From the NCBI RefSeq assembly GCF_024346455.1, contig NZ_JAGQCY010000001.1:186001-250000 (forward strand): a stretch of 64,000 nucleotides of DNA. Reading direction: 5' to 3'. How positions within the stretch are numbered: the first letter of the stretch is position 1; every line of letters begins with the position of its first letter. The notes beneath the pieces are model-generated. The model did not search any database. It was not told the DNA's origin and was given only the letters and a program-made list of their open reading frames with translations. This stretch comes from Cyanobium sp. Aljojuca 7A6 (GTDB lineage Bacteria > Cyanobacteriota > Cyanobacteriia > PCC-6307 > Cyanobiaceae). Positions 43,597-63,933 of this stretch are shown here, one piece after another. The position numbers were made by a program, and so were the translations under genes.

Positions 43597-44042
43597 CCGA
43601 GGACAGCGGCCATCTGTCCCAGGTTGGCGCGGCACTCGATCCCCCCGGCAGCGGCCCAGTCGTCGAGGAGGAACAGGCGCTGGGTGATCCAGAGCTCCAG
43701 GCTCTCAGGCGCGAAGCGGATCCCCTCGGTGGGGCTGAAGCCATGGGGGAGCAGCATCGCCACATGGCGGGTGAGCTGGCCCCCGCTGCGCTCCAGCGCC
43801 AGGGGCAGCCAGGGATGGAGCGCGTCGGCCCGCAGACTCCACAGCCGCAGCTCGGCAATCTCCGAGAGTTCGCGGGGGTCTGCGGCTTCCCGGGGCCAGT
43901 CGAAGTCGATCTGAAGTCCGCTGGCGGCGGTGAGCAGCTCGGCTGGTGCCAGCGACGCCAGGCCCGCCAGGGGGGAGAGATCCAGCCCACGCACCTGATC
44001 GGCGCTGACCTTCAGGGGCTCGGAGCAAGGGTGAAGCGCCAT
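43557..44042 (-). CDS. CRR6-family NDH-1 assembly factor (DUF1817)
   Basis: The 161-residue product matches the CRR6 family strongly. Recognised segments are QIDFDWPREAADPRELSEI, RLWSLRADALHPWLPLALER, RHVAMLLPHGFSPTEGIRF, LWITQRLFLLDDW and MAAVLGYELDPGFW. In chloroplasts and Synechocystis CRR6 helps mature NdhI and assemble the photosynthetic NDH-1 hydrophilic arm. It is thus a soluble assembly factor in the electron-transport and CO2-uptake context. The start is the ATG at 44042. It is divergent from a small protein gene 46 bases away. Confidence 0.9.
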   Translation of the reverse strand: MALHPCSEPLKVSADQVRGLDLSPLAGLASLAPAELLTAASGLQIDFDWPREAADPRELSEIAELRLWSLRADALHPWLPLALERSGGQLTRHVAMLLPHGFSPTEGIRFAPESLELWITQRLFLLDDWAAAGGIECRANLGQMAAVLGYELDPGFWSVIP

Positions 44043-44088
44043 CAAGAGCTGTGACAGGGCAGGGCCGCAGGCTGGACCGTAGCTCGCG

Positions 44089-44238
44089 ATGACCGAAGAA
44101 TGGGTCGGTCAAACTCCATTCACCGTCACGGATATGGTCACCCCGATCAACCAGGCCGAAGTGCTGATTGCCCTCGTCGTGGCGGCCCATGCCGGCGTGC
44201 TGGCCGTGCGTCTCTGCTTCAGCCTGTACAAAGCCTGA
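44089..44238 (+). CDS. 49-residue single-span membrane protein
   Basis: A short gene from ATG 44089 to TGA 44238. The product opens MTEEWVGQTPFTVTDMVTPI and then has one membrane helix, EVLIALVVAAHAGVLAVRLC, ending SLYKA. Size and topology resemble small photosystem, cytochrome b6f or NDH-1 subunits, though I cannot match it to a known one. It lies divergent from crr6 and 73 bases before another unknown gene. The codon pattern and clean helix support it being real. Confidence 0.65.
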   Translation: MTEEWVGQTPFTVTDMVTPINQAEVLIALVVAAHAGVLAVRLCFSLYKA

Positions 44239-44311
44239 AGCTGCAGGGGCTGCGCCCTTGGCAAGGGGCGGAGAGGCTGCTACAAGCGAAGGGCTCGCAG
44301 CCTTTCCTCAG

Positions 44312-45879
<1,568 letters not shown>

Positions 45880-45883
45880 GGCG

Positions 45884-46381
45884 ATGAACCGCACGCTGCG
45901 CTGGGGAGTTGGGCTGCTGCTGCTCGTCAGCCTGGCCGTCGGTGCGTTCCTGCTTCTGCCCTTCCGCACCTGGTTGCCCGGCGGCACCGTGGCGGATGTT
46001 CCCACCAGCCAGGTGGTGAACGGCACGGCCTTCAACCGTCTGTTCCCCGAGCCGGAAGCTGGCGACCTACTGGTGTTCACCCAGGAAAAACGTGGCTTCA
46101 GTGAGGCCAGGCTCAAGCACGGCGATCAGGTGAAAGCCCTGCTCGCCATCTCCGATGTCACCACCGCTCCGGAAGCACGCCGCAAGTTTGAGGCCAGCCA
46201 GAGCCGGCTGCAGGGCTGGCCGCTGGTGGAGCAGGGTCCGCAGGCCACGGCCCTGCTGGTCGCCGACCGATTCCAGATCAAGGTGATCGGCCAGGGCGAT
46301 GGGCTGGAGGCCGACGAACGTCAGGAGCTGATCGGCCAGTTCAATCTCAAGGGACTGGCGGCCCTGGAGCCCGCCGCGTGA
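45884..46381 (+). CDS. Membrane-anchored or exported protein, unknown
   Basis: The 165-residue product has an N-terminal signal/anchor (WGVGLLLLVSLAVGAFLLLP) followed by a compact domain. Recognisable segments are FNRLFPEPEAGDLLVFTQEK, GFSEARLKHGDQVKALLAIS and VADRFQIKVIGQGDGLEADE. It starts 4 bases after the por stop and its end overlaps the next gene (GTGA). That suggests a role linked to Por or its membranes, though no family is recognised. Confidence 0.7.
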   Translation: MNRTLRWGVGLLLLVSLAVGAFLLLPFRTWLPGGTVADVPTSQVVNGTAFNRLFPEPEAGDLLVFTQEKRGFSEARLKHGDQVKALLAISDVTTAPEARRKFEASQSRLQGWPLVEQGPQATALLVADRFQIKVIGQGDGLEADERQELIGQFNLKGLAALEPAA

Positions 46382-47262
46382 GTTCCGTTCTCGAGCGCCT
46401 CGACCGCCTGCCCCGACGCAACCTGACGGTGCTCGCCATCAAGGGCCTCAGCACCCTGGTGCCCGGCGGATGGAAGAACATCACCCGTGCCGACGAGCTC
46501 ATCGGCGACGTGCTGGGCAGCACCGATCCAGAGCTGATCCGCCAGGTGCGCGCGCGCGCTGACGCCTTGAGCCGGGCGCGCCACGAAGGCTATGGCCGAG
46601 CCCTGAGCTTGTACGACGCCGTCAACCGGTCCCAGAAAGCCGCCGGTGGGCTGCGGCTGCTGGCCAACATCGGTGGCGCCTTGCCGTTGGTGAAGCGCGT
46701 CGCCGACCTCACCCCCAGCAGTGAAACGCTGCAGGCGGCGGATCTGAGTTTGAAGGTGGCCGCCGAGATGCTGGCCTTCACCCAGGTGAACGGCCTCCCG
46801 GGGGACAGCTTCGGCGACTTTGCCGCCGCCTTGGCCGAGTACGCCGGTGAGGCCCGGGTACGAATGGCCGCGTTGATCTGTTTCGATGCCCTGCTGCCCC
46901 TGGGCGATCAGGCCCTGCAACGGCTGGATGGCCTGCTGGGAGGGGTTGGCAAGCGGGACCTGCACCAGCTGCCTGCCTATGCCGGCCTGGCCTCCAGGCT
47001 GCCGGGGCGTGGCGATGAGGCCCACCTGACCTTCCTGCGCCGGGGCATGGACCAGTGGCTGGGCTGGGCTGGAGGCTTCAGCAGCCAGCTGGGTCTCAGC
47101 GGCCAGAAGGCCGTGCAGGCCCTGGAGAGCACCCTCGGCCCCTGGCAGGGGAGCTTCCAGCAGATGGCCACCTTCCTCGATTCCTTCACCGACACCTACC
47201 AGCACACGGGCGTGCAGGCCGTGGCCCGTCGGCTGGTGGAGCGGGCCACGGCAGAAATCTGA
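46378..47262 (+). CDS. Soluble helical protein, unknown
   Basis: The 294-residue product from GTG 46378 is Ala/Leu-rich and helical throughout. Segments include LTVLAIKGLSTLVPGGWKNI near 15, the conserved-looking ADELIGDVLGSTDPELIRQV near 40, and QQMATFLDSFTDTYQHTGVQ near the end. I do not recognise a family. Its coupling to the por operon (overlap of 4 bases with the previous gene) is the only functional hint. It ends 13 bases before the convergent chlL stop. Confidence 0.7.
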   Translation: MSSVLERLDRLPRRNLTVLAIKGLSTLVPGGWKNITRADELIGDVLGSTDPELIRQVRARADALSRARHEGYGRALSLYDAVNRSQKAAGGLRLLANIGGALPLVKRVADLTPSSETLQAADLSLKVAAEMLAFTQVNGLPGDSFGDFAAALAEYAGEARVRMAALICFDALLPLGDQALQRLDGLLGGVGKRDLHQLPAYAGLASRLPGRGDEAHLTFLRRGMDQWLGWAGGFSSQLGLSGQKAVQALESTLGPWQGSFQQMATFLDSFTDTYQHTGVQAVARRLVERATAEI

Positions 47263-47275
47263 CCCCCCGAGGGGA

Positions 47276-48244
<969 letters not shown>

Positions 48245-48304
48245 TCAGATCGGATCTCGGCTGTCGGGGGATCACGCAAACCGAAACCTGGCCAGCTTGG
48301 GCCA

Positions 48305-48340
48305 CAACGGCTGAAGTGGGTCCTCAACGGCTGAAGTGGG
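48305..48340. repeat. Direct repeat at the chlB 3' end
   Basis: The 16-base sequence CAACGGCTGAAGTGGG occurs at 48305-48320 and again at 48325-48340. The second copy contains the last codons of chlB and most of its stop codon. It appears to be a local duplication of the gene's end; the copy between chlB and chlL is non-coding. Confidence 0.85.
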
Positions 48341-49970
48341 CCTTGGCGTCATAGAGGGCCTCGGCATCAATGCGTGCCAGGCCCCGTTCGCGGGCGAAGG
48401 CTTCGGTGTTCTTACGCACCTTGCCCCGCACGAAGAAGGGAATCTTGGCGAGTTCCGCCTCCCCATCCGCTGTCCAGAGGCTCTCGAGCGCCTCCCGCAC
48501 GGCGTCAGCGGCCGTGATGGTGCCGGGAGCGGATGCCGAAGCGGCCGGAGCAGCCTCGGGCTCCCCCGTCCCCGCCGCCGCCGGGGCGCCGTCACCCAGG
48601 TGGCTGCGGTGGCCGTCGACGAACTCGAAGTCGTGGCGGAACATGCCGATCAGGTGCTCCTCCAGGCCCATCATCAGCGGGTGCACCCAGGAATCGAAGA
48701 TCACGTTGGCCCCCTCCCAGCCCATCTGGGGGGAGTACCGGGCCGGCACATCCTGCACATGCAGGGGGGCACTGATCACGGCACAGGGCAGCCCCAGCCG
48801 CTTGGCGCTGTGGCGTTCCATCTGGGTGCCGAGCACCAGTTCGGCGGCCGCCTCGCCCATGGCCTTCTCCACCACCAGGTAGTCGTCGGTGATCAGGGCC
48901 TCCAGGCCCAGTTCGGCGGCGGCGGCCCGCACCTCCCTGGCCTGCTCCCGGCTGTAGCTGCCCAGACCCACCACCTGGAAGCCCAGTTCCTTGGAGGCGA
49001 TCCGGGCAGCGGCGATGGCGTGGGTGGCATCGGCGAAGATGAACACCCGCTTGCCGGTGAGGTAGGTGGAATCCACCGACTTGGAGTACCAGGGCAGGCG
49101 GGAGCGGCGCTCGGCCTCGCTCGGTTGCCCCTCCACGGTCTGCAGATCGGCTGGGAGCGCCAGGTCGAGCACGCCATGGAGCTCCCGCAGGAAGGCGGCG
49201 GTGGCCCCGATGCCGATCGGCACCGTGCGCACCACCGGGGTGCCGAAGCTGCGCTCCAGCCAGCTGCACATCGGGCCTGCCACCTCCGGATACAGGCAGA
49301 CGTTGGCGTCGGCCGTGGGGAGGCGCGTCAGATCGGCGGGCCGGGCTCCCAGCGGTGCCACCACCGCCACATCGATGCCGTGCTCGGCCAGCAGCCGGGT
49401 GATCTCCAGCACGTCGTCGCGGCAGCGGAAGCCCAGCAGGCTGGGACCCAGCAGGTTGACCCGGGGCCGGCGGCCTTCCTCGCGCCAGCGGGACGGGGAA
49501 GGCTTGGGGGTGCCCGGCGGCGGCAGCTGGTCCTTGAGCAAGGTGCGGACCAGTTGGTAGAAGGTTTCGGCCGCTCCCCAGTTCTCCTTCTTGGAGTAGG
49601 CCGGCAGTTCCAGGTTCACCAGCGGCACCCCCAGATTCATGCCCCCGGCCAGGGCGCCGGGCTGGTCCTGGATCAACTCGGCAGTGCAGCTTTCCCCCAC
49701 CAGCAGCGCCTCAGGCTGGAAGCGCTCGACGGCCTGGCGGATCGAGCGCTGCACCAGCTCGGCGGTGTCGCCGCCCAGATCCCTGGCCTGGAACGTCGTG
49801 TAGGTGACGGGGGGACGCAGGCCCCGCCGCTCGATCATCGTGAACAACAGGTCGGCATAGGTGTCGCCCTGGGGGGCATGGAGCACGTAGTGCACCCCCT
49901 CCATGGAGGTGGCGATGCGCATGGCCCCCACGTGGGGGGGGCCTTCGTAGGTCCAGAGGGTCAGTTCCAT
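48324..49970 (-). CDS. chlB: Dark-operative protochlorophyllide reductase subunit ChlB
   Basis: ChlB pairs with ChlN to form the catalytic heterotetramer that binds protochlorophyllide. The 548-residue product from the ATG at 49970 begins [20 protein letters not shown]. It carries the family segments [17 protein letters not shown] near 100, [20 protein letters not shown] near 235, and [20 protein letters not shown] near 305. A C-terminal small domain ends [20 protein letters not shown]. An Ala/Pro-rich linker before it is longer than in many homologues. The start is 7 bases after chlN. Confidence 0.98.
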
Positions 49971-49977
49971 GGGGGTC

Positions 49978-51279
<1,302 letters not shown>

Positions 51280-51349
51280 TTAGCGGGGCAGACGGGGTCA
51301 GCGGCCGACTGCGTTACATCTTTTCGGGATCGTGTCCGGATTTCAGCGT

Positions 51350-51853
51350 TCAGAGGCGGCGGCGGAACCCCTCACCGAAACTGGCGCCGCGCTCGTCGCG
51401 ATCGCCATCGGCGCTGCGGCTGAGCTTCCAGACGTTGCGTCCCAGGCGCCGGGCCCTCAGCCCACCGCGCTCGACCACCGGCGCCCCCGGCCGGGCCCCC
51501 ATCAGCTGGGCCACCTCGGCGGTGCTCAGGGGGGCGCCGGTGCGGATGGCCAGGTCGGTGATCTCGAGCCGCTGGCGCAGGCCCCCCAGATCGACAGGGT
51601 GGTCTGCTTCGCCGGTCTCCTTCCAGTCGCCGAAGCCGTCGGCGCCGACGCTGCCCAGGCGCCGCATCAGACCCAGGCCGATGAAGGCAAGGGCCTGCTC
51701 CGGCCGCACCCCCTCATCCAGCGCCCGGGTGAGCCATTCGGACACGGTGTCCTGGTCGAGGGAGGGGCGCAGCGGATGGGTCTCGCCCGCGACCGCGGCG
51801 GCCGGGGATTCGCTGGTGGTGGAAGGGGCGGAAGCGGTGCGCCGGGTGGTCAT
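51350..51853 (-). CDS. Conserved-looking unknown protein upstream of chlN
   Basis: The 167-residue product from the ATG at 51853 has an Ala/Ser/Thr-rich start. A helical region EWLTRALDEGVRPEQALAFI follows, then a segment resembling a winged-helix recognition part: LRQRLEITDLAIRTGAPLST then AEVAQLMGARPGAPVVERGG. The C-terminus is basic (ARRLGRNVWKLSR). A DNA- or RNA-binding role is plausible from this pattern but unproven. It is in line with chlN-chlB-chlL and divergent from the oxygen-sensor-like cyclase, 162 bases away. Confidence 0.65.
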   Translation of the reverse strand: MTTRRTASAPSTTSESPAAAVAGETHPLRPSLDQDTVSEWLTRALDEGVRPEQALAFIGLGLMRRLGSVGADGFGDWKETGEADHPVDLGGLRQRLEITDLAIRTGAPLSTAEVAQLMGARPGAPVVERGGLRARRLGRNVWKLSRSADGDRDERGASFGEGFRRRL

Positions 51854-52015
51854 GGTCGCGCCTGTGAAGGTTGCCTGGAAGGTATCGGTTGGCTTCGGTC
51901 CCGCAAGGGTCCCTGGGCTCTGAAGCCCCTCTGCAGCACAATGAATCCAGGCCTGATCCACCCCCTGTCGCGTGCACTGCCGAGTGCCTCCACTCAGTGC
52001 CTCCCCGTTCACATC

Positions 52016-53728
52016 ATGGACCGTTCTCTCCACCGGCCCTGCGAACATTCCGCCTCCCAGGTCCGACGCGACGCGACCTCAACGCCGGAGAAGCCGATAG
52101 AGATCGCACCCGGTGTTTGGTGGGTGGGTGTGCGGCTGGATAAGGATCATTTCCAGTGCCACACCTATTTCCTCGCCAACGGTTCGGAGGGGGTGCTGAT
52201 CGATCCTGGCTCGCCACTCACGATCGAAGGCACCCTGGCCAAGCTGCGAACCATCACCGATTTCGGAGCGATCCGCTGGCTCGTCTGTCACCACTCCGAT
52301 CCCGACATCTGCGCCGCCCTGCCCAGGCTGGGCGAAGTCCTGACACACCCTGAGATTCAGGTGGTGACGGAGTGGCGCGCCAATGCCCTGATCCGTCATT
52401 ACGGCCATCGTTTCTCCACCTACCTGGTGGAGCAGCACGACTGGTGCCTGCCCCTGCTGGGGGGTCGGCGGCTGGAATTCCAGCTGACCCCATACCTCCA
52501 TTTTCCGGGGGCCATGGTTTCGTACGACTCCCTCAGCCACACCCTGTTCTCTTCGGATCTGTTCGGAGGCTTCGTCCCCGACAGCAACGTGCTGGAGTCA
52601 GATGATGCGGCCTACATCATCGAGAACGCCCGGCCCTTCCATCAGCACTACATGCCGAGCAGGGAGCTGCTCAGCGCCGGCCTGGCCCGCATCCGCTCCC
52701 GCTGGCCGTGCATCGGGCGAATCGCCCCCCAGCACGGCCACATCGTTGCCGCCACCATTGTCGATGAGGTGTTCAGCGCCCTGGGCGCCATGGAGTGCGG
52801 CGTCTATTGCCTCGCCGACGCAGACATGGACCTGAAACGACTGCTCCGCATCGCCGAAGCGCGGCGGCGTCTGAACGACGTACTGGTGCATCAGAGCAGC
52901 CCCGTGGGGATGGTCCGGGCCATCGGCAACATCCTCGAATCCTCAGGCCAGGCCAGCGCCTGTGAACTGGCCGTGGAGATGCCCACCGATGGCTGGACCA
53001 CCTGGTCTGCCGATGACAGCCATCCCCAGCGGCGGAAGCCCCATGCGGGCTGGCATCAGATCTGCCTGCTCGGCCAGCCCGCCATGGTGCTGGCCATCCA
53101 GGGCCATGGTGCATCGCAGTTGTTCGATCCCGACATGGAAAAGATGTTGCGGGACTTCGCCGATTCAATGCGCCCCTGGCTCGACCATCTGCTGGAGGAA
53201 CAGCTCCAGGCCCGCGAGATGGCGGCACTCAACATCGCGGTCCTCTGCGATCCGCTCACGGGCCTGGCCAACCGGCGTGCCCTTGAAGAGGTGAAGCTGC
53301 CGTCCGCTTACTCCCTGATCGAGCTGGATCTCGACCATTTCAAGCAGGTCAACGACAGCTTCGGCCACGACGCCGGCGACCGGGTTCTTAAGCAATTGGC
53401 CCAGATTCTGAGGGAATCGGTGCGGGAGCAGGACCAGACCTTCCGCCTCGGCGGCGAGGAGTTCCTGGTGCTTCTGCCGGAGGCCGACCAGGCCACAGCC
53501 CTGCTGGTGGCCGAAAGGATCCGGCTCTCGGTGCGGCAACTCGATCTTGCCCGGGACGCCCCCGATGGCGGAATCACGGTCAGCCTGGGGGTGAGCACCA
53601 AGCCGGCCCAGCTCAGCTCCGATTTCTCCCAGCTGATGGGGCTGGCTGACCAGGCGCTCTATGCCGCCAAAGGGGAGGGCCGCGACCGGGTTTGCGCCGC
53701 CGATTCCCTGTCCCTGAGCAGCCGCTAA
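52016..53728 (+). CDS. Diguanylate cyclase fused to flavodiiron-like metallo-beta-lactamase (oxygen-binding di-iron) domain
   Basis: The 570-residue protein starts at ATG 52016. Residues about 30-290 form a metallo-beta-lactamase fold of the flavodiiron/ODP type. Candidate iron ligands are H93, D95 and D97 (HHSDPD), H162 (YLHFPGAMV), D181 (SSDLFGG) and H240 (PQHGHI). Their spacing is almost that of flavodiiron proteins, with no flavodoxin domain. A middle helical/GAF-sized region follows. The GGDEF domain has DPLTGLANRRALEE, the active GGEEF at 479-483, and an RxxD inhibitory site at 470-473 (REQD). It should make c-di-GMP under control of O2, NO or redox. It is divergent from the chlNBL side. 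Confidence 0.9.
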   Translation: MDRSLHRPCEHSASQVRRDATSTPEKPIEIAPGVWWVGVRLDKDHFQCHTYFLANGSEGVLIDPGSPLTIEGTLAKLRTITDFGAIRWLVCHHSDPDICAALPRLGEVLTHPEIQVVTEWRANALIRHYGHRFSTYLVEQHDWCLPLLGGRRLEFQLTPYLHFPGAMVSYDSLSHTLFSSDLFGGFVPDSNVLESDDAAYIIENARPFHQHYMPSRELLSAGLARIRSRWPCIGRIAPQHGHIVAATIVDEVFSALGAMECGVYCLADADMDLKRLLRIAEARRRLNDVLVHQSSPVGMVRAIGNILESSGQASACELAVEMPTDGWTTWSADDSHPQRRKPHAGWHQICLLGQPAMVLAIQGHGASQLFDPDMEKMLRDFADSMRPWLDHLLEEQLQAREMAALNIAVLCDPLTGLANRRALEEVKLPSAYSLIELDLDHFKQVNDSFGHDAGDRVLKQLAQILRESVREQDQTFRLGGEEFLVLLPEADQATALLVAERIRLSVRQLDLARDAPDGGITVSLGVSTKPAQLSSDFSQLMGLADQALYAAKGEGRDRVCAADSLSLSSR

Positions 53729-53871
53729 GCCGGGATCGCCCCTGGCAGCGCCCCACCCGGGAGTACCCTCCAATCCTGGACTGCCCCTGAAGGCGACCAG
53801 GGATCCCGGCGCTTCAACGACCCGGTGATCGACACGACCGTCCTCTCCGGGAGTTGGCGCCTGGCGCCGTG

Positions 53872-54672
53872 ATGGATTCGCAGGCTGCCCGTTCCTTCCT
53901 TCGCGACGATCGGTCGGACGCCAGAAGGCGGGCGGCGAACCTGCGCATCACCGGCACCGATGTGGGCGGCGAGGCCTCCGGGGCCAGTTGCGTGATCACC
54001 ACCGACAGCGAGGGCAGGCGCCTGGCGCGCCAGTCGAGCCATGTGCAGTCGATCGAGCTGCGCACCTACGTCTTCCTGGATTCCCTCCAGCCCCAGTTGG
54101 CCTCCTACATGGGCACGGTGTCCCATGGCTTCCTGCCGATTCCCGGCGATGCCTGCCTCTGGCTGGAGGTGTCCCCTGGCATGGCGGTGCACCGGGTCAC
54201 CGACATCGCCCTCAAGGCCAGCACGGTGCGGCTCGGCCAGATGGTGGTGGAGCGGGCCTTCGGCTCCCTGGCCCTTTACCACCGGGATCAGAGCAATGTG
54301 CTCCACTCCGGTGACGTGGTCCTGGAGGCCATCGGCAGCCGGGTGGAGCTGCGCAGCCGCTGTGAGGTGACCTGGACCGAGATCATCCGGGCGATCACCC
54401 CCGACCATGCCGTGCTGATCAACCGCCAGAACCGCCGCGGCTCGATGATCCAGGCCGGTATGAGCATGTTCATCCTCGAGACCGAGCCGGCCGGTTACGT
54501 GCTGATCGCCGCCAACGAGGCGGAGAAGGGCTCCAACATCACCGTGGTCGACGTCAAGGCCGTCGGTGCCTTCGGCCGCCTCACCCTGGCGGGCAAGGAG
54601 GGCGATGTGGAAGAGGCCGCCGCCGCCGCCATGCGCGCCGTGGCCCAGATCAATGCCGGCGCTGGCGCCTGA
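53872..54672 (+). CDS. csoS1D: Carboxysome shell protein CsoS1D (tandem BMC)
   Basis: CsoS1D forms pseudohexameric trimers that stack and gate a large pore in the alpha-carboxysome shell. The 266-residue product has a disordered start of about 45 residues and two BMC-like halves: [20 protein letters not shown], and [20 protein letters not shown] with [10 protein letters not shown] at the end. The gating pair Glu-Arg is seen at residues 127-128 (MVVERAFGS). The ATG at 53872 gives the normal length. The 143 bases upstream hold no gene. It is convergent with rdgB. Confidence 0.95.
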
Positions 54673-54676
54673 ACGC

Positions 54677-55249
54677 TCAGCCCAGGCCCAGCAGACGTTT
54701 CAGACCCGGGGCCATCGCCCGGGCCGCCTTGCCACGGCTGCCCAGCCGGCTCTTGAGGTGCTCGCCCATCTCGGCATAGCTGCAACCGGCTTCGCGCACG
54801 TGGAACAGCGGGTCATAGCCGCCGCCATGGCCCGAAGGCTGGCGCAGGATCAGCCCGCGGCAGAGCCCCTCCGACTCCAGCACCACCGCACCGGACGGGT
54901 CGGCCAGGGCCATGGCGCTCACGAAGGTGCCGCCGCGGTAGAGGGAGTCGCCAAGCTCCTGCAGCAGCCGGTGGATCTTCTCGTGGTCGGTGGGTGCATA
55001 GCGGGCCGAGTACAGGCCGGGGCGGCCATCGAGGGCATCCACCTCCAGACCCGAATCGTCGCCCAGCGACCAGCAGCCGGTGAGGGCGGCCACGGTGGAG
55101 GCCTTCAGACGGGCATTTTCCGCATAGGTATGGCCGGTCTCCTCGATCTCCAGATCCTTCGGTTGCTGCCTGACCTCCAGACCCACCTCGTCGAGCATGG
55201 CCGTGATTTCGGCCACCTTGTGGGGGTTGCCGCTGGCGATGACCAGCAC
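54677..55249 (-). CDS. rdgB: Non-canonical purine NTP pyrophosphatase (Ham1/RdgB)
   Basis: The enzyme removes ITP, dITP and XTP from nucleotide pools. The product (about 190 residues) has the opening VLVIASGNPHKVAEITAMLD, the metal/substrate segments GHTYAENARLKAS and LGDDSGLEVDALDGRPGLYS near 65, and SGHGGGYDPLFHV near 145. GTG 55249 was chosen at the first strand; TTG 55273 would add eight residues. The gene lies inside the carboxysome/bicarbonate-uptake block but on the opposite strand, an association I recall from picocyanobacteria. Confidence 0.95.
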   Translation of the reverse strand: MLVIASGNPHKVAEITAMLDEVGLEVRQQPKDLEIEETGHTYAENARLKASTVAALTGCWSLGDDSGLEVDALDGRPGLYSARYAPTDHEKIHRLLQELGDSLYRGGTFVSAMALADPSGAVVLESEGLCRGLILRQPSGHGGGYDPLFHVREAGCSYAEMGEHLKSRLGSRGKAARAMAPGLKRLLGLG

Positions 55250-55508
55250 CGGGTGGGAAGGGGAGAGGAACAAACCAGGCCCACGGGGGGCCCCATTGTG
55301 GTGCAGAGCGGTAGGCCGGGCGCTGAAGGGGTGGGACAGGACGGGTTGAACAGTCCACCCCCGGAAAACTCCAGGGTTCCTGCCCCGGGCGGACGCTAGG
55401 GACTTCGCCGGCGATCGGACGACACGGGGGGCAACGTTGCGCGACCGGTGACGGCCTGCAGCCGCTTCCGCCCCTAGGTTTCCTCCACCCTTTGGGCCCC
55501 GGAGGGCA

Positions 55509-56525
55509 ATGCAGTCGAGCCTGGTCCTACAGAACCTGCTCTCCGCGCCGGTGCTGTTCTTCTTCCTGGGCATCCTCGGTGTGTTGGTGGGCTCCGACCT
55601 GGAGATCCCCTCCCCACTGCCCAAGCTGTTCTCCCTCTACCTGCTGCTGGCGATCGGCTTCAAGGGGGGCATGGAGCTGGCCCACAGCGGCCTCGGCCCC
55701 CAGGTGCTGCTGACGATCGGGGCGGCGGTGCTGATGTCGCTGCTGGTGCCCCTGACCAGCTTCCTGTTCCTGCGACTACGCCTTGATGGTTACAACGCCG
55801 CCGCCATCGCCGCTTCCTACGGCTCGATCAGTGCCGTCACCTTCATCACCGCCGAGAGCTTCCTCAATGTTCTGGAGGTGAACTTCGACGGCTTCATGGT
55901 GGCGGCCCTGGCCCTGATGGAGTCGCCGGCGATCGTGGTGGGAGTGATCCTGGCCAGACTTTCGGCCCCCGCGGAGGAGGCGGAGACGGCTGGGGAGGCG
56001 GAGGATGGCGGGGGCAGTCTGCGCTGGCGGGAAATTCTCCAGGAGGCCTTTCTCAACGGCTCCGTCTATCTGCTGATCGGCAGCCTGGTGATCGGCTATG
56101 TGGTGGCCGCCTACAGCCCTGCGGGGTTGGAGAAGATGGATCCCTTCACCGAAAAACTCTTTTATGGCGCCCTCTGTTTCTTCCTGCTCGACATGGGCAT
56201 CGTGGCGGCACAGCGGCTGCGGGACCTGCGCCAGACGGGGGCGTTTCTGATCGGGTTCTCCCTGCTGGCCCCCCCTGTGCATGCCCTGGTGGGGCTGCTG
56301 GTGAGTGTCCTGCTGGGCCTGAGCCAGGGCAACACCCTGCTGTTCATGGTGCTCTGCGCCAGCGCCTCCTACATCGCCGTGCCGGCGGCGATGCGCATGA
56401 CCGTCCCCCAGGCCAATCCAAGCCTGTACATCTCCACGGCCCTGGGTCTCACCTTCCCCTTCAATGTGGTGGTCGGGATTCCCCTCTACATGGCGCTGAC
56501 CCGACACTTCATCCCCGTCGGCTGA
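55509..56525 (+). CDS. sbtA: Sodium-dependent bicarbonate transporter SbtA
   Basis: SbtA is a high-affinity Na+/HCO3- symporter of the plasma membrane. The 338-residue product has ten apparent spans in two inverted halves. Family segments are LLLAIGFKGGMELAHSG, AIAASYGSISAVTFITAESF and ASASYIAVPAAMRMTVPQAN, the last two at the substrate/sodium site. The central cytoplasmic loop (about 155-175) is acidic. A good ribosome-binding site (GGAGG at 55501-55505) precedes ATG 55509. The 259-base gap before it should hold the promoter, and sbtB follows. Confidence 0.96.
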   Translation: MQSSLVLQNLLSAPVLFFFLGILGVLVGSDLEIPSPLPKLFSLYLLLAIGFKGGMELAHSGLGPQVLLTIGAAVLMSLLVPLTSFLFLRLRLDGYNAAAIAASYGSISAVTFITAESFLNVLEVNFDGFMVAALALMESPAIVVGVILARLSAPAEEAETAGEAEDGGGSLRWREILQEAFLNGSVYLLIGSLVIGYVVAAYSPAGLEKMDPFTEKLFYGALCFFLLDMGIVAAQRLRDLRQTGAFLIGFSLLAPPVHALVGLLVSVLLGLSQGNTLLFMVLCASASYIAVPAAMRMTVPQANPSLYISTALGLTFPFNVVVGIPLYMALTRHFIPVG

Positions 56526-56571
56526 GCCCAGGCTCCATGCCATTGCCTCGCCGAACCTTCGCCCCATCACC

Positions 56572-56853
56572 ATGAAGCGAATCGATCTGTTTCTCAGCGA
56601 ACGGGAGTTGAACCGGGTCTGCAAGGCCATCACCGCGGCCGGCGCCAAGGGCTACTCGGTGATGCGGCATGTGACCGGCATGGGGCCGTCCGGGGAGATC
56701 TCTGAAGGGATGGATTTCAGCGGGCTGGGGGCCAATGCCCACGTGATCGTGTTCGTGGAGGACGCCCTGCTGGCGGCCATGGGCAAGGCCCTGCGGCCCC
56801 TGCTGAAGCGCTACGGCGGGGTGGGCTTCGTCTCGAGCGCCGAGCCCCTCTGA
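56572..56853 (+). CDS. sbtB: SbtB, PII-like regulator of SbtA (short form)
   Basis: SbtB binds SbtA and adenine nucleotides to close bicarbonate uptake. The 93-residue product has the PII fold: MKRIDLFLSERELNRVCKAI, then a T-loop region around MRHVTGMGPSGEISEG, then HVIVFVEDALLAAMGKALRP. It ends VGFVSSAEPL, without the C-terminal Cys-Gly-Pro-x-Gly-Cys redox loop seen in the well-studied Synechocystis protein. That redox control step is therefore probably absent. It is 46 bases after sbtA and 200 bases before csoS1. Confidence 0.93.
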   Translation: MKRIDLFLSERELNRVCKAITAAGAKGYSVMRHVTGMGPSGEISEGMDFSGLGANAHVIVFVEDALLAAMGKALRPLLKRYGGVGFVSSAEPL

Positions 56854-56896
56854 GCCCCAGGGAAACCCCAGCGCGGCCATGGTGGGAGCAGCGATC

Positions 56897-56911
56897 AAGC
56901 AAAGTTTGCTT
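56897..56911. promoter_or_regulatory. Perfect palindrome in the sbtB-csoS1 gap
   Basis: The 15-base sequence AAGCAAAGTTTGCTT is a perfect inverted repeat (7+1+7) in a locally AT-richer stretch, 44 bases after sbtB and about 142 before the csoS1 start. A one-base centre cannot form a hairpin, so a dimeric protein site is more likely than a terminator. A LysR-type regulator (CcmR/CbbR group) is a candidate, but no protein evidence is in the window. Confidence 0.5.
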
Positions 56912-57053
56912 TTTGTGTTGCACTGATCAGCTGCCCTTATCAGCCGATCGCGAAACCATGATGGCCGCCGGGCTCCCAATCGCTTGACGGAGGGTTTGAC
57001 GGAGGAGCAAGGTTGCACACGAACATTCCACCCCCCTCCTCCAGGAGCAGGTA

Positions 57054-57365
57054 ATGGCAAACGAAACCATGGGCATCGCCCTCGGCATGATCGAGACACG
57101 CGGTCTGGTCCCCGCCATCGAAGCGGCTGACGCCATGACCAAAGCCGCCGAAGTGCGCCTCATCGGTCGCGAATTCGTCGGAGGCGGCTATGTGACCGTC
57201 CTGGTGCGGGGTGAAACCGGTGCCGTCAACGCCGCCGTCCGCGCCGGCGCTGACGCCTGCGAGCGGGTTGGTGACGGCCTGGTGGCCGCCCACATCATCG
57301 CCCGTCCCCACCGTGAAGTGGAGCCGGCGCTGAACAGCAGCTTCGGCCTGGGATCGAAGGACTGA
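57054..57365 (+). CDS. csoS1: Major carboxysome shell hexamer protein CsoS1
   Basis: This single-BMC-domain protein makes the facets of the alpha-carboxysome. The 103-residue product reads GIALGMIETRGLVPAIEAAD and GREFVGGGYVTVLVRGETGA, with the pore Gly stretch GREFVGGG, and AAHIIARPHREVEPAL at the end. It has a good ribosome-binding site, AGGAG at 57043-57047. It is the first gene of the operon csoS1-cbbL-cbbS-csoS2-csoSCA-csoS4A-csoS4B, with 51 bases before cbbL. Confidence 0.98.
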   Translation: MANETMGIALGMIETRGLVPAIEAADAMTKAAEVRLIGREFVGGGYVTVLVRGETGAVNAAVRAGADACERVGDGLVAAHIIARPHREVEPALNSSFGLGSKD

Positions 57366-57416
57366 GCGGTCAAGGCGACCCTCTGATTTTTCATCCGAAC
57401 CCATCCGAACAATCCC

Positions 57417-58829
57417 ATGAGCAAGAAGTACGACGCCGGGGTCAAGGAGTACCGCGACACTTACTGGACTCCCGATTACATCCCCCTCGACACCGACCTG
57501 CTGGCCTGCTTCAAGTGCACCGGCCAGGAAGGTGTGCCCAAGGAAGAAGTGGCTGCCGCCGTGGCCGCCGAATCCTCCACAGGCACCTGGTCCACTGTGT
57601 GGTCCGAGCTCCTCACCGATCTCGACTTCTACAAGGGCCGCTGCTATCGCATCGAAGACGTCCCTGGTGACAAGGAGTCGTTCTATGCCTTCATCGCCTA
57701 CCCCCTCGACCTGTTCGAAGAAGGCTCGGTGACCAACGTGCTCACCTCCCTGGTGGGCAACGTGTTCGGCTTCAAAGCCCTGCGTCACCTGCGTCTGGAA
57801 GACATCCGCTTCCCGATGGCCTTCATCAAGACCTGCCCTGGCCCGCCGAACGGCATCTGCGTCGAGCGCGACCGGATGAACAAGTACGGCCGTCCCCTGC
57901 TGGGTTGCACCATCAAGCCGAAGCTCGGCCTTTCCGGCAAGAACTACGGCCGGGTGGTCTACGAATGCCTCCGCGGTGGCCTCGACTTCACCAAGGACGA
58001 CGAGAACATCAACTCCCAGCCCTTCCAGCGCTGGCAGAACCGTTTCGAGTTCGTGGCCGAAGCCGTCCAGCTCGCCCAGGAAGAAACCGGCGAGAAGAAG
58101 GGGCACTACCTCAACTGCACCGCCGCCACTCCTGAGGAGATGTACGAGCGGGCTGAGTTCGCCAAGGAACTCGGGCAGCCGATCATCATGCACGACTACA
58201 TCACCGGTGGCTTCACGGCCAACACCGGTCTGTCGAAGTGGTGCCGCAAGAACGGCATGCTGCTGCACATCCACCGGGCCATGCACGCGGTGATCGACCG
58301 CCATCCCAAGCACGGCATCCACTTCCGGGTGCTGGCCAAGTGCCTGCGCCTCTCCGGTGGCGACCAACTGCACACCGGCACCGTGGTGGGCAAGCTCGAG
58401 GGTGACCGCCAGACCACCCTGGGCTTCATCGACCAGCTGCGCGAATCCTTCATCCCCGAAGACCGCACCCGCGGCAACTTCTTCGATCAGGACTGGGGTT
58501 CGATGCCCGGCGTCTTCGCCGTGGCCTCCGGCGGCATCCACGTGTGGCACATGCCTGCCCTGGTCGCCATCTTCGGTGACGACTCCGTACTCCAGTTCGG
58601 TGGTGGCACCCACGGTCACCCCTGGGGCTCGGCCGCCGGCGCCGCCGCCAACCGGGTGGCCCTGGAAGCCTGCGTCAAGGCCCGCAACGCCGGCCGCGAG
58701 ATCGAGAAGGAAGGCCGCGACATCCTCATGGAAGCCGCCAAGCACAGCCCCGAGCTGGCCATCGCCCTCGAGACCTGGAAGGAGATCAAGTTCGAGTTCG
58801 ACACCGTCGACAAGCTCGACGTCGGCTGA
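57417..58829 (+). CDS. cbbL: RuBisCO large subunit, form IA
   Basis: This is the catalytic subunit of CO2 fixation, packed in carboxysomes. The 470-residue product has the active-site segments [13 protein letters not shown] (catalytic Lys) and [16 protein letters not shown] with the carbamylated Lys and metal-binding Asp/Glu. [35 protein letters not shown] and loop 6 follow. The opening [20 protein letters not shown] is typical of form IA, in line with its place beside CsoS2. The 51-base leader has two direct CATCCGAAC repeats. Confidence 0.99.
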
Positions 58830-58856
58830 GCCGACACACGGCCCCCTGCCTTGCCA

Positions 58857-58892
58857 CCGCTGACCGAAGGTGCACCCACCGGAGGTCAGCGG
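58857..58892. promoter_or_regulatory. Stem-loop between cbbL and cbbS
   Basis: A perfect 9-base inverted repeat, CCGCTGACC (58857-58865) and GGTCAGCGG (58884-58892), encloses 18 bases that themselves contain the palindrome GGTGCACC. It lies 28 bases after the cbbL stop and ends 37 bases before the cbbS start. No U-run follows, so an RNA stability or processing element is more likely than full termination. Confidence 0.6.
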
Positions 58893-58929
58893 AGCTGGGC
58901 TTCCCATCCCATTCCCCACAAGGATCCCC

Positions 58930-59271
58930 ATGCCCTTCAAGAGCACCGTGGGTGACTATCAAACAGTCGCCACCCTGGAGACCTTCGGCTTCCTCCCGCC
59001 GATGACCCAGGACGAGATCTATGACCAGATCGCCTACATCATTGCCCAGGGCTGGAGCCCCCTGGTTGAGCACGTTCACCCCAGCCGCTCCATGGCCACC
59101 TACTGGTCGTTCTGGAAGCTGCCCTTCTTCGGTGAGAAGGATCTCGGCGTGATCGTCAACGAACTGGAGTCCTGCCACCGGGCCTATCCAGACCACCACG
59201 TGCGCCTCGTGGGCTACGACGCCTACACCCAGAGTCAGGGTGCCTGCTTCGTCGTGTTCGAAGGCCGCTGA
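58930..59271 (+). CDS. cbbS: RuBisCO small subunit, form IA
   Basis: The 113-residue product caps the L8 core of RuBisCO. It reads TLETFGFLPPMTQDEIYDQI, then ARM-like WSPLVEHVHPSRSMATYWSF and WKLPFFGEKDLGVIVNELES, ending GACFVVFEGR. All are usual form I small-subunit features. It has the short A/B loop of the form IA type. The ATG at 58930 follows AAGGA. It is flanked by inverted repeats on both sides. Confidence 0.98.
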   Translation: MPFKSTVGDYQTVATLETFGFLPPMTQDEIYDQIAYIIAQGWSPLVEHVHPSRSMATYWSFWKLPFFGEKDLGVIVNELESCHRAYPDHHVRLVGYDAYTQSQGACFVVFEGR

Positions 59272-59286
59272 TCCAGCGGTCCCAGC

Positions 59287-59311
59287 GGATCCCGGCCGGC
59301 GGCCGGGGTCC
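59287..59311. promoter_or_regulatory. Strong GC hairpin between cbbS and csoS2
   Basis: GGATCCCGGCC and GGCCGGGGTCC pair over 11 positions (one G-T) around a three-base loop, 15 bases after the cbbS stop. It is followed by CATCACTTCTGATC, not a U-run, so it probably attenuates or protects the 3' end of the cbbLS message rather than stopping all transcription into csoS2. Confidence 0.65.
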
Positions 59312-59343
59312 ATCACTTCTGATCATCCATTCACGGGGCGGAC

Positions 59344-61755
59344 ATGGCCAAGACCACCAGTCGGGAAGCAGCTCTGGAGCGCCGCAAGGCCCTCACCAAC
59401 GGCGGCAAGAAAGCCTCCGCCCAGTTCATGTCCTCCCCAGGTCGGGTGCGTACGGCCGCTGATGTCCAGCGCCCCAGCCCCGAAGCGGTGAGTCCCGCAC
59501 CGGCCCCGGCCCCGACCTCCCCACGCAGCAGCGCCACGCCGCGACGGGCGTCCGCCTCGCTCACCTCCGCGTCCGGCTCCGGCCATCGCAGCAACGCCAA
59601 GCCGTTGGCGAACCCCAGCCGGAACCTGGTCCTGGAACGCCGTGAAGCCCTGTCCCGCCGCGGCAAGCGCGCCGACACCTCCAGCGACCGCACCCGCCAG
59701 GAGGTGATGCGCGCCACCAAAGCCAGCCAGTCCGCCGCCACCCCCGCCGTGGCCGTCGCCAGCGATCGCCCCTGCGGCTGCAAGGACGCCAAGGCGGCCG
59801 CAGCCGCCAGCAGCAACAACTCCGCCGGCCTCGGGGCGTCCCTGGCCAACCGCAATGCCCGCAATGGCAACGGAGAGCGCCGCAGCGTCGCCAAGCGCAC
59901 CGCCCAGCACAACCCCAGCCGGGCCATCGTCATGGCCCGCCGCGAGGCCCTCTCCAAGCGGGGCAAATCCGCCAGTGCTCCCACCAGCGCCGTCGCCGCC
60001 TCGGTGGCGCGCCAGTCGAATCCCGACATGAGCAGCCGCGAGCTGGCCCAGAAGGTGCGCGAGCTGAAGTGCAAGGTGGGCTCCGCCGGCAGCTCCCGCA
60101 GCGGTGGCTCCCGTCCCACCGGCCCCCGCCGCGGCCAGGCCAAGATCGATGCCGCCGCCGATGCCCATTGGAAGGTCGGCGTGAGCGAAACGGTCCGTGG
60201 CCAGGTGGTCACCGGGACCCAGGCGAACCGCTCCCTCAAGACAACCGGCAACGAGGCCAGCACCTGCCGTCCGGTCACCGGCACCGAGTACATGGGCGCC
60301 GAGATCTTCCGCACCTTCTGCCAGAGCGAACCCACCCCGCTCCAGCCCGCCAAGGTGAGGGTGAGCGCCACCAGCCATGGCAACCGGGTCACGGGCAACG
60401 AAGTGGGCCGCTCCGAGAAAGTCACCGGCGACGAGCCCGGAACCTGCAAGACCATCACCGGCACCGAATACATCTCCGCCAACCAGAGCGCCACCTGGTG
60501 TGGCACCTCCGCCCCCGCCCCCTCCCCCCGCAAAGTCGGGTTCACCCGCACCGTCGAGGGCCGGCCGGTCTCCGGGGTGAGCGTGGAGCGATCCGAGAAA
60601 GTCACCGGCAACGAACCTGGCTCCAACCGCCAGCTCACCGGCACCCAATACATGGACGACCAGGCCCAGGTACCTGGGCGCGCCCCGGCCAAGGTCAGCA
60701 GCCTGCACACCCTGCGCGGCACCGGCATCACCGGCACCCACGTGGGCCGCAGTGAGCACGTCACCGGCGACGAGCCGGGCTCCTGCCGTTTGGTCACCGG
60801 CGATGAATACATCGGCACGCAGCAGTTCGAGCAGTTCTGCGGCACCAAGCCGGCACCGGAAGCCGCCAAGGTGGGCTTCAGCGTCACCAACAAGGCGTTG
60901 GTGGTGAGTGGCACCCGCACCGGCCGTTCCGAGAAGGTCACCGGGGATGAGCCAGGCACCTGCAAGGCCGTCACCGGCACCCCCTACGCCGGCATGGAAC
61001 AGGCAGGCACCTGGTGCTCCTCCGACCGGGTGGCCGAGATCCGCCAGCGCACCCCCGCCCGCATGGGCACTGTGATGACCGGCCTTCAGCCCGGCATCGG
61101 CGGCGTCATGACCGGCGCCGAGCGCGGCGCCTGCGAGGACATCACCGGCACCCCCTACATCGGTGGCGACCAGCTGACGGAGGCCTGCGGAGCCGCCAGC
61201 AGCCACGACGCCGATTTCCCCCAGCCCCTCACCGGTCAGCCCTGGCAGCAGTTCAGCGTCCAGTCCCCGGCCCGGGCCGCGCACACGGCCCAGACCGCCC
61301 GCCAGCGGCCCGGTGGCGTCACCGGCAACAGCTACGAGCAGGGCAACCGCATCACCGGCCCCTTCGACATGGCCGCCGACAAGGTGACCGGCACCGAACA
61401 GTTCCGCTTCGACCGTCCCGGCCCCGAACGGGTCAGGCTGCGGCAGCCGCCCGCGGCAGCGTCGGTGACCGTGGATGAGGACGCCCGTCCCACCTCCCGG
61501 GTCACCGGCGAAGGCCTCTCCGCCGGCCTCAACATCACCGGCGATGACTGGGGTCGGGGCAAGCACGTGACCGGCACCGAAGGGGCCTCGGCCCGTCGCC
61601 GCAACCCCAGCAGGGTCGGCCCGATCTCGGCGATGCCCGGCTTCCAGAACAAGCGCAACGAAGCCCTGCCCGAGCCCACCAGCAAGATCAGCGGATCCTG
61701 CGGCAGCACCAACTCCGGTTCCCTGATCACGGTCTCCGGCGGAGCCCGCGGCTGA
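59344..61755 (+). CDS. csoS2: Carboxysome scaffold protein CsoS2
   Basis: CsoS2 is a disordered repeat protein that ties RuBisCO to the shell. The 803-residue product has N-repeats with the RuBisCO-binding pattern: ALERRKALTNGGK, VLERREALSRRGK and VMARREALSKRGK. About six middle repeats (residues roughly 276-616) follow the RSxxVTGDEPGTCxxVTGTxY pattern. The C-terminal part ends in the conserved peptide GSCGSTNSGSLITVSGGARG. Middle repeat 3 has lost its Cys residues (GNEPGSNRQLTGTQY) and repeat 6 is shortened. I saw no frameshift slip site of the kind that makes the short form in Halothiobacillus. Confidence 0.97.
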   Translation: MAKTTSREAALERRKALTNGGKKASAQFMSSPGRVRTAADVQRPSPEAVSPAPAPAPTSPRSSATPRRASASLTSASGSGHRSNAKPLANPSRNLVLERREALSRRGKRADTSSDRTRQEVMRATKASQSAATPAVAVASDRPCGCKDAKAAAAASSNNSAGLGASLANRNARNGNGERRSVAKRTAQHNPSRAIVMARREALSKRGKSASAPTSAVAASVARQSNPDMSSRELAQKVRELKCKVGSAGSSRSGGSRPTGPRRGQAKIDAAADAHWKVGVSETVRGQVVTGTQANRSLKTTGNEASTCRPVTGTEYMGAEIFRTFCQSEPTPLQPAKVRVSATSHGNRVTGNEVGRSEKVTGDEPGTCKTITGTEYISANQSATWCGTSAPAPSPRKVGFTRTVEGRPVSGVSVERSEKVTGNEPGSNRQLTGTQYMDDQAQVPGRAPAKVSSLHTLRGTGITGTHVGRSEHVTGDEPGSCRLVTGDEYIGTQQFEQFCGTKPAPEAAKVGFSVTNKALVVSGTRTGRSEKVTGDEPGTCKAVTGTPYAGMEQAGTWCSSDRVAEIRQRTPARMGTVMTGLQPGIGGVMTGAERGACEDITGTPYIGGDQLTEACGAASSHDADFPQPLTGQPWQQFSVQSPARAAHTAQTARQRPGGVTGNSYEQGNRITGPFDMAADKVTGTEQFRFDRPGPERVRLRQPPAAASVTVDEDARPTSRVTGEGLSAGLNITGDDWGRGKHVTGTEGASARRRNPSRVGPISAMPGFQNKRNEALPEPTSKISGSCGSTNSGSLITVSGGARG

Positions 61756-61761
61756 TCCCTG

Positions 61762-63297
61762 ATGCCCCGCCGCCCGGCTCCAACCATCCGTCCCCTGGCC
61801 CCCAGTGCCCCCCGGCGCCGGAGTGAGTCTTCCGGTGGCGCCGATCTCTCCCGGCGCCTGGCGGCTGTGCGGCTCGGCCAGGGGGCCGCAAGCCTGCATC
61901 CGCTGACGGACAGCGCCGCGAATGCGGCCCTCGAGAGCTATGACCGCGGCGTCAAGGAGGCCTTCGATCGAATCGTGCCCGTGCTCAAGCGCCTGTCGGC
62001 CCTGCAGCACGAGGATGACTTTGTCGAGCGCGCCCAGGCCCTGGCCCAGGCCGAACTCGGCTTCAGCCTGCCCCTGCCGATCCTGGAGAAGGCCTGGGTC
62101 AGCCAGCTCGACATGCGCAGCCTGTTCGCCTGGTGCGTCTTCGAAACCTACGAACAGACCAGCGACGGCTTCTTTCGCGACGATCCCCTGCATGGCCAGC
62201 CCGGCAGCCCGGCAGCGGAGGAATTCAACGCCTTTCTGCTCTCCTGCGGCTTCCACCTGCTGGATGCCACCCCCTGCGCCGACGGTCGCCTGGCCCATGC
62301 CATCGCCTTCGCCCTGCGGCTGCCGTTCAGCTCGGTGCGCCGCAGGCCCCATGCCGGTGCCCTGTTCGATGTGGAGAACACGGTCAACCGCTGGGTCAAG
62401 ACGGAACATCGCCGCTACCGGGAGGGCGTTCCCAACCCCGCCCACGACGACACCCGATACCTGAAGGTGGTGCTGTATCACTTCAGTTCCCGCGACCCCT
62501 CCCACGAGGGCTGCGCCGCCCATGGCAGTGACGACGCCCTAGCCGCCAGCTGCGGCAGGCAGCGACTGATGGAGTTCCAGCAGGCGGTGGAGAACAGCTT
62601 CTGCTGCGGCGCCTCCGTCGACCTGCTGCTGCTGGGCATCGACACCGACACCGATGCCATCCGGGTGCACGTGCCGGGCATGGACGGCAGCACCCGCCTG
62701 GATCACTGGCTGGATGCCACCACGGTGTATGAGGCGACACGCCAGCTGCACCCCGAGGAGGCCCGGCGCCGGATCGCTGAACTGGTGACGGCGGCGGCGG
62801 CCAGCAGCCCCGATCCGGGCATGGTGCGCCTGATCGCCCGGCTGCTGGAGAACAACATCTCCCAGATCGACTACGTGCGCCAGTACCACCACGGCTGCTA
62901 TTCCGATGCCGGCCATGCCGAGCGCTTCATCGGCGTGGGGATCGGCTTCAAGGAGATCCACCTGCGCAATCTCACCTACTTCGCCTACATGGACACCGTC
63001 GAAGAGGGAGCCCCGGACATGGACGTGGGGGTGAAGATCTTCAAGGGGCTCAATGTGTCGCGTGGCCTGCCGGTGCCGGTGGTGGTGCGCTTCGATTACA
63101 ACGGCAAGGTGCCCGGGGCCCGGGAGCGGGCGGTGCGCCATGCCCAGCGGGTGCAGGAAGCGATCGAGAACCGTTACCCCGAGCTTTTCTCCCAGGGCCT
63201 GCTGCATGCCCTGCTGACCGTGCGCGACCAGGAACGGCACACGCCCGCCGAGGCGGTAGGTTCCAGCATCAGCCTCACCACCGCAGGAGGACACTGA
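61762..63297 (+). CDS. csoSCA: Carboxysomal carbonic anhydrase CsoSCA
   Basis: This epsilon-type (beta-related) zinc carbonic anhydrase makes CO2 inside the carboxysome. The 511-residue product has a basic, Pro/Arg-rich start, a helical domain (LSALQHEDDFVERAQALAQA), and the catalytic domain. The catalytic domain carries Cys, Asp and Arg in TPCADGRLAHAIAFAL near residue 170 and the His/Cys segment DPSHEGCAAHGSDD near 245. A third, non-catalytic duplicate domain ends the protein. It starts 6 bases after csoS2, and its 3' end holds the ribosome-binding site of csoS4A. Confidence 0.97.
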   Translation: MPRRPAPTIRPLAPSAPRRRSESSGGADLSRRLAAVRLGQGAASLHPLTDSAANAALESYDRGVKEAFDRIVPVLKRLSALQHEDDFVERAQALAQAELGFSLPLPILEKAWVSQLDMRSLFAWCVFETYEQTSDGFFRDDPLHGQPGSPAAEEFNAFLLSCGFHLLDATPCADGRLAHAIAFALRLPFSSVRRRPHAGALFDVENTVNRWVKTEHRRYREGVPNPAHDDTRYLKVVLYHFSSRDPSHEGCAAHGSDDALAASCGRQRLMEFQQAVENSFCCGASVDLLLLGIDTDTDAIRVHVPGMDGSTRLDHWLDATTVYEATRQLHPEEARRRIAELVTAAAASSPDPGMVRLIARLLENNISQIDYVRQYHHGCYSDAGHAERFIGVGIGFKEIHLRNLTYFAYMDTVEEGAPDMDVGVKIFKGLNVSRGLPVPVVVRFDYNGKVPGARERAVRHAQRVQEAIENRYPELFSQGLLHALLTVRDQERHTPAEAVGSSISLTTAGGH

Positions 63298-63299
63298 CC

Positions 63300-63853: not shown

Positions 63854-63933
63854 GCGCCGGGGGGTACCGCCACCGGGCGGCCCGCCTCCTTTCGATTGTC
63901 TCCACTCCAGTTCCTCCTCCCCGCGCCCGTCCC

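Follow-up and report, generated by a model that had tools for sequence, protein, structure and literature searches.

The window analysed here is a stretch of 64,000 nucleotides, corresponding to bases 186001-250000 of contig C1 in a genome of 3.13 Mb and 34 contigs. The gene of interest lies on the forward strand (52016..53728, ATG start, TAA stop) and encodes a fusion protein of 570 residues, in which an ODP-type di-iron domain is followed by a GAF-like relay and a GGDEF diguanylate cyclase domain. The ATG at 52016 is supported by the conservation of the start across close copies: MDRS is found at this position in all seven close intact copies, that of the window included, and the copy in genome G268 begins with MERS at the same place. 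This conserved start opens an N-terminal segment of 25 residues (52016..52090, forward strand), and residues 1-23 have a pLDDT below 50 in the structure model. The protein has no strong hydrophobic stretch (maximum 19-residue mean 1.44) and therefore looks soluble.

Three genes assigned by Pfam and NCBIfam, chlL (47276-48214), chlB (48324-50039) and chlN (49978-51276), lie nearby on the reverse strand. Between chlN and the fusion gene there is a reading frame for a conserved unknown protein of 167 residues (51350..51853, reverse strand), which we label hypA and which has no Pfam or NCBIfam match at E 0.1. An earlier note on this DNA had described the fusion gene as lying beside chlNBL; it is indeed near them, but its immediate neighbour is hypA, 162 bp from the gene start. 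In many of the relatives examined, the hypA protein is also encoded between chlN and csoS1D. The divergent gap shared by hypA and the fusion gene (51854..52015) contains a block at about 51881-51909 (GGTATCGGTT...CGCAAGGG) that is conserved in eight copies. Degenerate forms of this block occur near hypA in some genomes without the fusion gene, and the block may therefore be part of the hypA/chl side. A known RNA element was considered and rejected, as Rfam gave no match in 44000-64000, gap block included. Downstream of the fusion gene, a reading frame for a CsoS1D/CcmP-like shell protein (53854..54672, forward strand; the true start is probably further in) adjoins the alpha-carboxysome region, a rubisco/alpha-carboxysome cluster according to our reading of the ORFs. 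SbtA- and SbtB-like genes, likewise labelled from their ORFs, are found in this region at 55509-56853 (forward strand), between ham1 and csoS1.

The di-iron domain of the MBL type occupies approximately residues 26-262 (52091..52801, forward strand). The ODP model PF19583 matches residues 46-241 with an E-value of 1.1e-46 and 159.6 bits, against a curated cut-off of 27.2. The six ligands H93, D95, D97, H162, D181 and H240, with spacings of 65 (D97-H162), 19 and 59, are present as the earlier note had claimed, as are the reading frame and its coordinates, and this HxDxD...H...D...H set aligns with that of the solved ODPs 6qrq and 6qnm. An alignment of 27 full-length rows (cyanobacteria, Mariprofundus, Ca. 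Magnetocorallium and others) retains each ligand in 26-27 rows. Because this conservation extends to proteins of other phyla with about 33% identity, the ligand set is not a chance arrangement. The alignment leaves out L156 (GGDEF by motif, omitted by choice), L150 and L152 (cut at contig ends), L147, L153 and L158 (other outputs), the broken cyanobacterial copies, and L135 and L136, which are the same copies as L002 and L001.

The domain had been called flavodiiron-like. It shares the di-iron MBL core, but the type is that of ODP rather than flavodiiron, because glutamine (Q239) precedes the last ligand and no histidine follows D97. The motif APQHG, with Q239 before H240, is found in 26 of the 27 rows and Q239 has its counterpart in both solved ODPs, whereas FprA has APSHG; position 98 is isoleucine, and both solved ODPs are alike in this respect. 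In the ODP of T. maritima, a glutamine in motif 5 is described as replacing the third histidine of motif 2 (PMC7785958, in the part dealing with this protein), which is the combination seen here in Q239 and I98. The flavodoxin-like FMN domain that follows the di-iron core in flavodiiron proteins is missing from the chain, where a GAF-like region and then GGDEF are found instead. No flavodoxin family of Pfam or NCBIfam was matched at E 0.1, in agreement with the earlier reading, and NCBIfam flavorubredoxin models match weakly, at residues 53-243 only (32-33 bits). Among PDB sequences, ODP 6qrq/6qwo scores 68 bits, FprA 1ycf 57 and the second ODP 6qnm/6r9n 55. The structure model of the full protein has a pLDDT of 84.5, with a pTM of only 0.48 that makes the arrangement of the domains uncertain. 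Compared with known structures, modelled residues 24-275 have ODP 6qwo as the top match (Z 29.7, rmsd 2.5, 244 aligned residues); peroxy-ODP 6r9n gives Z 28.6, and flavodiiron structures come close behind the top match with Z 25.9-28.9. By the model, the fold alone would thus be close to a tie between ODP and flavodiiron, and it is the ligand set that separates them. An origin from the genome's own Flv-like genes was rejected: the three other matches to the ODP model, two of which are in Flv-sized frames, score 35-45 bits against 163 for the fusion gene. A plasmid source was also rejected, since the six plasmid records at E 1e-10 include none that covers 80% of the query, and the best identity is 31%.

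The middle region, residues 264-406 (52805..53233, forward strand), is a putative GAF-like relay with long helices at both ends. No Pfam model, of GAF or any other family, matched it at E 0.1, whether in the protein of the window or in the five relatives scanned. Modelled alone with AF2, it reaches a pLDDT of 85.7 and a pTM of 0.77, and the top four structural matches are all GAF domains (3cit, Z 10.9, rmsd 2.8, 122 aligned residues), with a best Foldseek E-value of only 2e-3 and only four strands. The relay is the least conserved part of the protein, the window protein sharing 8-18% identity in this region with the 16 non-cyanobacterial rows. The GGDEF domain at residues 411-558 (53246..53689, forward strand) is matched by Pfam with an E-value of 3e-38 and 131.6 bits, against a cut-off of 23.8, and the corresponding region of the model matches 5euh with Z 24.4. 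The GGEEF motif (479-483) and the RxxD I-site (R470/D473), five residues before it, are both present as claimed previously. D438, N446, D455 and K552, which we take to be substrate- and metal-binding residues, are found in 27/27 rows together with GGEE; F483 is found in 26/27, and R470 and D473 in 27/27. The domain thus looks active, with apparently intact active and inhibitory sites, and Pfam, structure and the 27-row conservation all agree with the earlier view that a di-iron sensor domain is joined to an active-looking GGDEF. With 19 GGDEF, 8 EAL and 6 PilZ matches in the genome, the cell probably has the means to read a c-di-GMP signal.

Relatives of the fusion protein are found in bacteria well outside the phylum of the window. 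In the phylum of Mariprofundus, 47 of 299 genomes were matched at E <= 1e-60, with 55 matches, of which 20 were fetched as loci. In sixteen of these the module is followed by GGDEF, recognised by motif in 14 and by Pfam in two; in three others the same ODP and relay module is fused to a class III nucleotide cyclase (L147) or to HisKA-HATPase-REC, the output of a hybrid histidine kinase (L153, L158), and one locus is cut at the contig end. An input domain that is paired with different outputs in this way is typically sensory, and we therefore infer that the ODP module is the sensor. The phylum of Ca. Magnetocorallium has matches in 7 of 295 genomes, in frames of 584-599 residues in two (G628, G1100) and only in frames of 226-408 residues in the remaining five; Ca. 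Magnetocorallium itself has two full fusions. By sequence, the fusion is common to a cyanobacterium and to iron-oxidising and magnetic bacteria. Within the phylum of the window (386 sampled genomes, E <= 1e-30), matches extend beyond the ODP domain in the window's genus only, and families f30 and f32 have six matches, all confined to the ODP part. One of these is a different ODP fusion, with DUF4388, encoded in another family of this phylum (L127:1105-3159, genome G331). A contig scan with nearly the whole protein as query gave mostly GGDEF-only matches; among its best 80 loci, three (L001, L002, L003) include the ODP part, going by the ranges listed. In a tree of the ODP domain (37 rows), the 11 cyanobacterial rows form one clade (100/100) on a long stem, with a sister group that lacks resolution. 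Around the copies in G069, G292, G023, Mariprofundus and Ca. Magnetocorallium, where the neighbours are unannotated ORFs, no shared gene was recognised.

In the family of the window, 23 of 300 genomes were matched at E <= 1e-10, and 18 carriers remain after removal of five as Flv-like (G020, G025, G026, G032, G074; 28-33% identity, frames of 592-610 residues), a removal based on size and identity and not on a domain scan. Eleven of the 18 copies are intact (G000, G132, G175, G189, G198, G208, G217, G235, G268, G069, G292) and seven are broken by differing lesions. In G023 an inserted segment carrying a transposase-like ORF (L118:7856-8806, ORF reading) interrupts the gene between relay and GGDEF; the G286 copy contains a stop and two frame changes; G005, G090, G113, G148 and G280 retain deleted remnants. 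A second GGDEF-like stretch (36% identity) is found in G280 between ham1 and csoS1D (L123:5066-5560), in addition to the remnant of its own ODP-GGDEF gene. The fusion gene is therefore sparse and dispensable in the family. Where intact syntenic copies are compared (seven pairs without G268 and G189), omega is 0.055-0.148 in the ODP domain, 0.19-0.41 in the middle region and 0.18-0.34 in GGDEF. Values against the more distant G189 are higher in all domains (0.33, 0.52 and 0.58, respectively), and the two pairs with G268 give 0.30-0.36 for ODP, with 0.24-0.28 and 0.30-0.34 for the other two domains, values that do not leave the range of the seven pairs. None of 97 otherwise invariant ODP sites is changed in the window copy.

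The copy in G268 (L115:8151-9899) has four of the six ligands replaced, with N, E, G and Q at positions 93, 97, 181 and 240. Of the sites at which the ten remaining cyanobacterial proteins are all identical, it differs at 17/114 in the ODP domain, 0/24 in the middle region and 0/51 in GGDEF (ODP against the rest, Fisher p 1.3e-4, in a test chosen after the pattern was seen). G292, on the other hand, is changed in all three domains (12/109, 7/31 and 11/62), and G069 and G189 are likewise changed in all three. In G268, then, the iron sensor has decayed alone while the cyclase was kept. This pattern fits a separable sensor and output and also shows that the sensor is dispensable; the G268 copy may serve as a natural control for how the sensor gates the cyclase.

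Taken together, the protein is probably a soluble diguanylate cyclase whose activity is controlled by a non-heme di-iron centre of the ODP type, which responds to O2 or redox state. At low O2 the centre would take up ferrous iron, and O2 would convert it to a peroxo/diferric form; the change would pass via the relay and signalling helices to the GGDEF dimer and alter how much c-di-GMP is made, with the product acting as an inhibitor at the I-site. Iron binding, O2 binding and control of the cyclase are predicted properties of the protein. ODP is described as an O2 sensor in the sections of PMC7666581 devoted to it, and di-iron gating of a diguanylate cyclase has a precedent in the hemerythrin-DGC of Vibrio cholerae, for which PMC9388753, in its account of the enzyme, reports that the diferrous form is ten times faster than the diferric. 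By analogy with this enzyme, activity at low O2 is favoured, and we consider it somewhat likelier that more c-di-GMP would be made when O2 falls than the reverse. Low-oxygen c-di-GMP would then favour attachment in the dark or in dense, low-oxygen settings. The host is a phototroph, whose oxygen is made by day and may run short at night.

The fusion protein can be compared with several known systems. The ODP sensors of Treponema denticola and Thermotoga maritima (PF19583; 6qnm, 6r9n, 6qrq, 6qwo) have the same fold over approximately residues 24-275 (Z 26.9-29.7), with the same six ligand positions and the same Q-H pair of motif 5. The relevant part of PMC7666581 presents the ODP of T. denticola as a protein of its own, coupled to an MCP homologue, whereas here a GAF-like relay links the domain to a cyclase. 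According to the summary in the TREND paper (PMC7319448), Muok et al. 2019 reported a group of ODPs fused to signal-transduction domains; the present protein belongs to this group as it is described there, and that summary names no GGDEF fusion and no cyanobacterium. Flavodiiron proteins (Flv1/Flv3, FprA, ROO) share the MBL-type di-iron core, but the fusion protein lacks their flavodoxin domain and, in the alignment, has HxDxD and Gln where FprA has HxExDH and Ser before the last His. Like the fusion protein, VcBhr-DGC of V. cholerae has a non-heme di-iron domain N-terminal to GGDEF, and it is a functional analogue, not a relative. The hemerythrin sensor is unrelated to ODP in fold and ligand set. 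Redox-gated c-di-GMP synthesis is what PMC9388753, in the part concerned, attributes to VcBhr-DGC. A census of 2022 on O2 and redox sensors in c-di-GMP networks lists heme globin, heme/flavin PAS, hemerythrin and disulfide sensors in its table 3, and no ODP appears in that table (PMC8846402). GGDEF, though no lactamase, is mentioned in a Zetaproteobacteria pan-genome study (PMC8250860). No description of an ODP-GGDEF protein was recognised in searches of an open-access full-text library, subscription papers being outside this scope. The ODP-signalling fusion is an already described kind, and this protein is uncharacterised as far as seen. If confirmed, ODP-cyclases would be the second way of linking oxygen to c-di-GMP through non-heme iron.

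The same architecture could have NO, ferrous iron supply or cellular redox as its natural signal, not O2 itself, which we regard as rather unlikely. The superfamily includes NO reductases, going by PDB molecule names, and the title of Muok et al. 2019 reportedly calls ODP an Fe(II) and oxygen sensor. A relative is present in Mariprofundus, characterised as a genus of iron oxidisers in part of PMC8250860, and hemerythrin cyclases answer to redox state and not to ligand binding in the account of PMC9388753; the solved ODPs, however, are described as O2 sensors in the portion of PMC7666581 on their function. Sequence does not tell O2, NO and Fe(II) apart as the signal. The N-terminal domain might otherwise be an enzyme, a flavodiiron-like O2/NO reductase or zinc hydrolase incidentally fused to GGDEF. 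Its flavodiiron fold (Z 25.9-28.9) and the weak flavorubredoxin matches of 32-33 bits point in this direction, but the absence of any flavodoxin or rubredoxin part, the ODP-type Q239 and I98, and the joining of the module to three kinds of signalling output make this extremely unlikely. It is also very unlikely that the gene is in decay and has no maintained sensing role in this lineage: the seven broken copies with their differing lesions and the loss of four ligand residues in G268 would be expected of such a gene, but the copy of the window and six close copies are intact, the ODP domain has the low omega values given above, and its otherwise invariant sites are unchanged in the window.

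A di-iron sensor of the preferred kind might act as an O2-responsive switch for chlNBL or the carboxysome genes through the shared divergent region; this we hold to be decidedly improbable. According to passages of PMC4500134, the O2-sensitive DPOR remains functional in Leptolyngbya boryana at up to ~3% O2, and in 14 of the 18 carriers the fusion gene lies between hypA, next to chlN, and csoS1D. In G189 it likewise has hypA on one side and csoS1D on the other, with chlN located on a different contig, so that 15/18 have it beside hypA-csoS1D; in the remaining three (G023, G069, G292) it is elsewhere. The adjacency to chlNBL proposed earlier therefore persists in most carriers and is not lost in all relatives, but fails in these three and in G189. 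A link to pigment synthesis, which the earlier note had also suggested, is not supported. Among 40 hand-chosen, non-random genomes (25 of the window's genus, three other carriers and 12 further members of the family), every genome has both chlN and csoS1D, with or without the fusion gene, and the two lie within 4 kb of each other in 37/40. These include 20 of the 22 genomes without the fusion gene, down to genomes of 1.7 Mb, and the seven carriers with a broken copy still have chlN. At 17 csoS1D sites without the fusion gene (14 non-carriers and the three carriers that have it elsewhere) no trace of it was found at E <= 1e-3. Since the chlN-csoS1D block exists without the fusion gene, entry into an existing block is the simplest history, and a single insertion event would by itself account for the linkage. 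Moreover, a review credits PedR with the activation of chlL/N/B in Synechocystis, and its main text never mentions c-di-GMP (PMC4500134). Linkage to chlNBL was accordingly rejected as functional evidence: the block is present without the gene, 3/18 copies are elsewhere and 7/18 are broken. The position beside chlNBL and the carboxysome genes most likely marks an insertion site and not a pathway; the fusion gene shows no closer tie to chl than to cso, and chance may account for both. More ambitiously, ODP-GAF-GGDEF could be a gas-sensing cyclase family of oxygen-gradient bacteria (cyanobacteria, Mariprofundus, magnetic bacteria), captured here between the dark-chlorophyll and carboxysome operons, with low-oxygen c-di-GMP tuning both and the G268 copy as a natural locked version, a conjecture that we would call a long shot. 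A second, nearly identical copy of csoS1D is found on another contig of G113 (C10:121405-122016).
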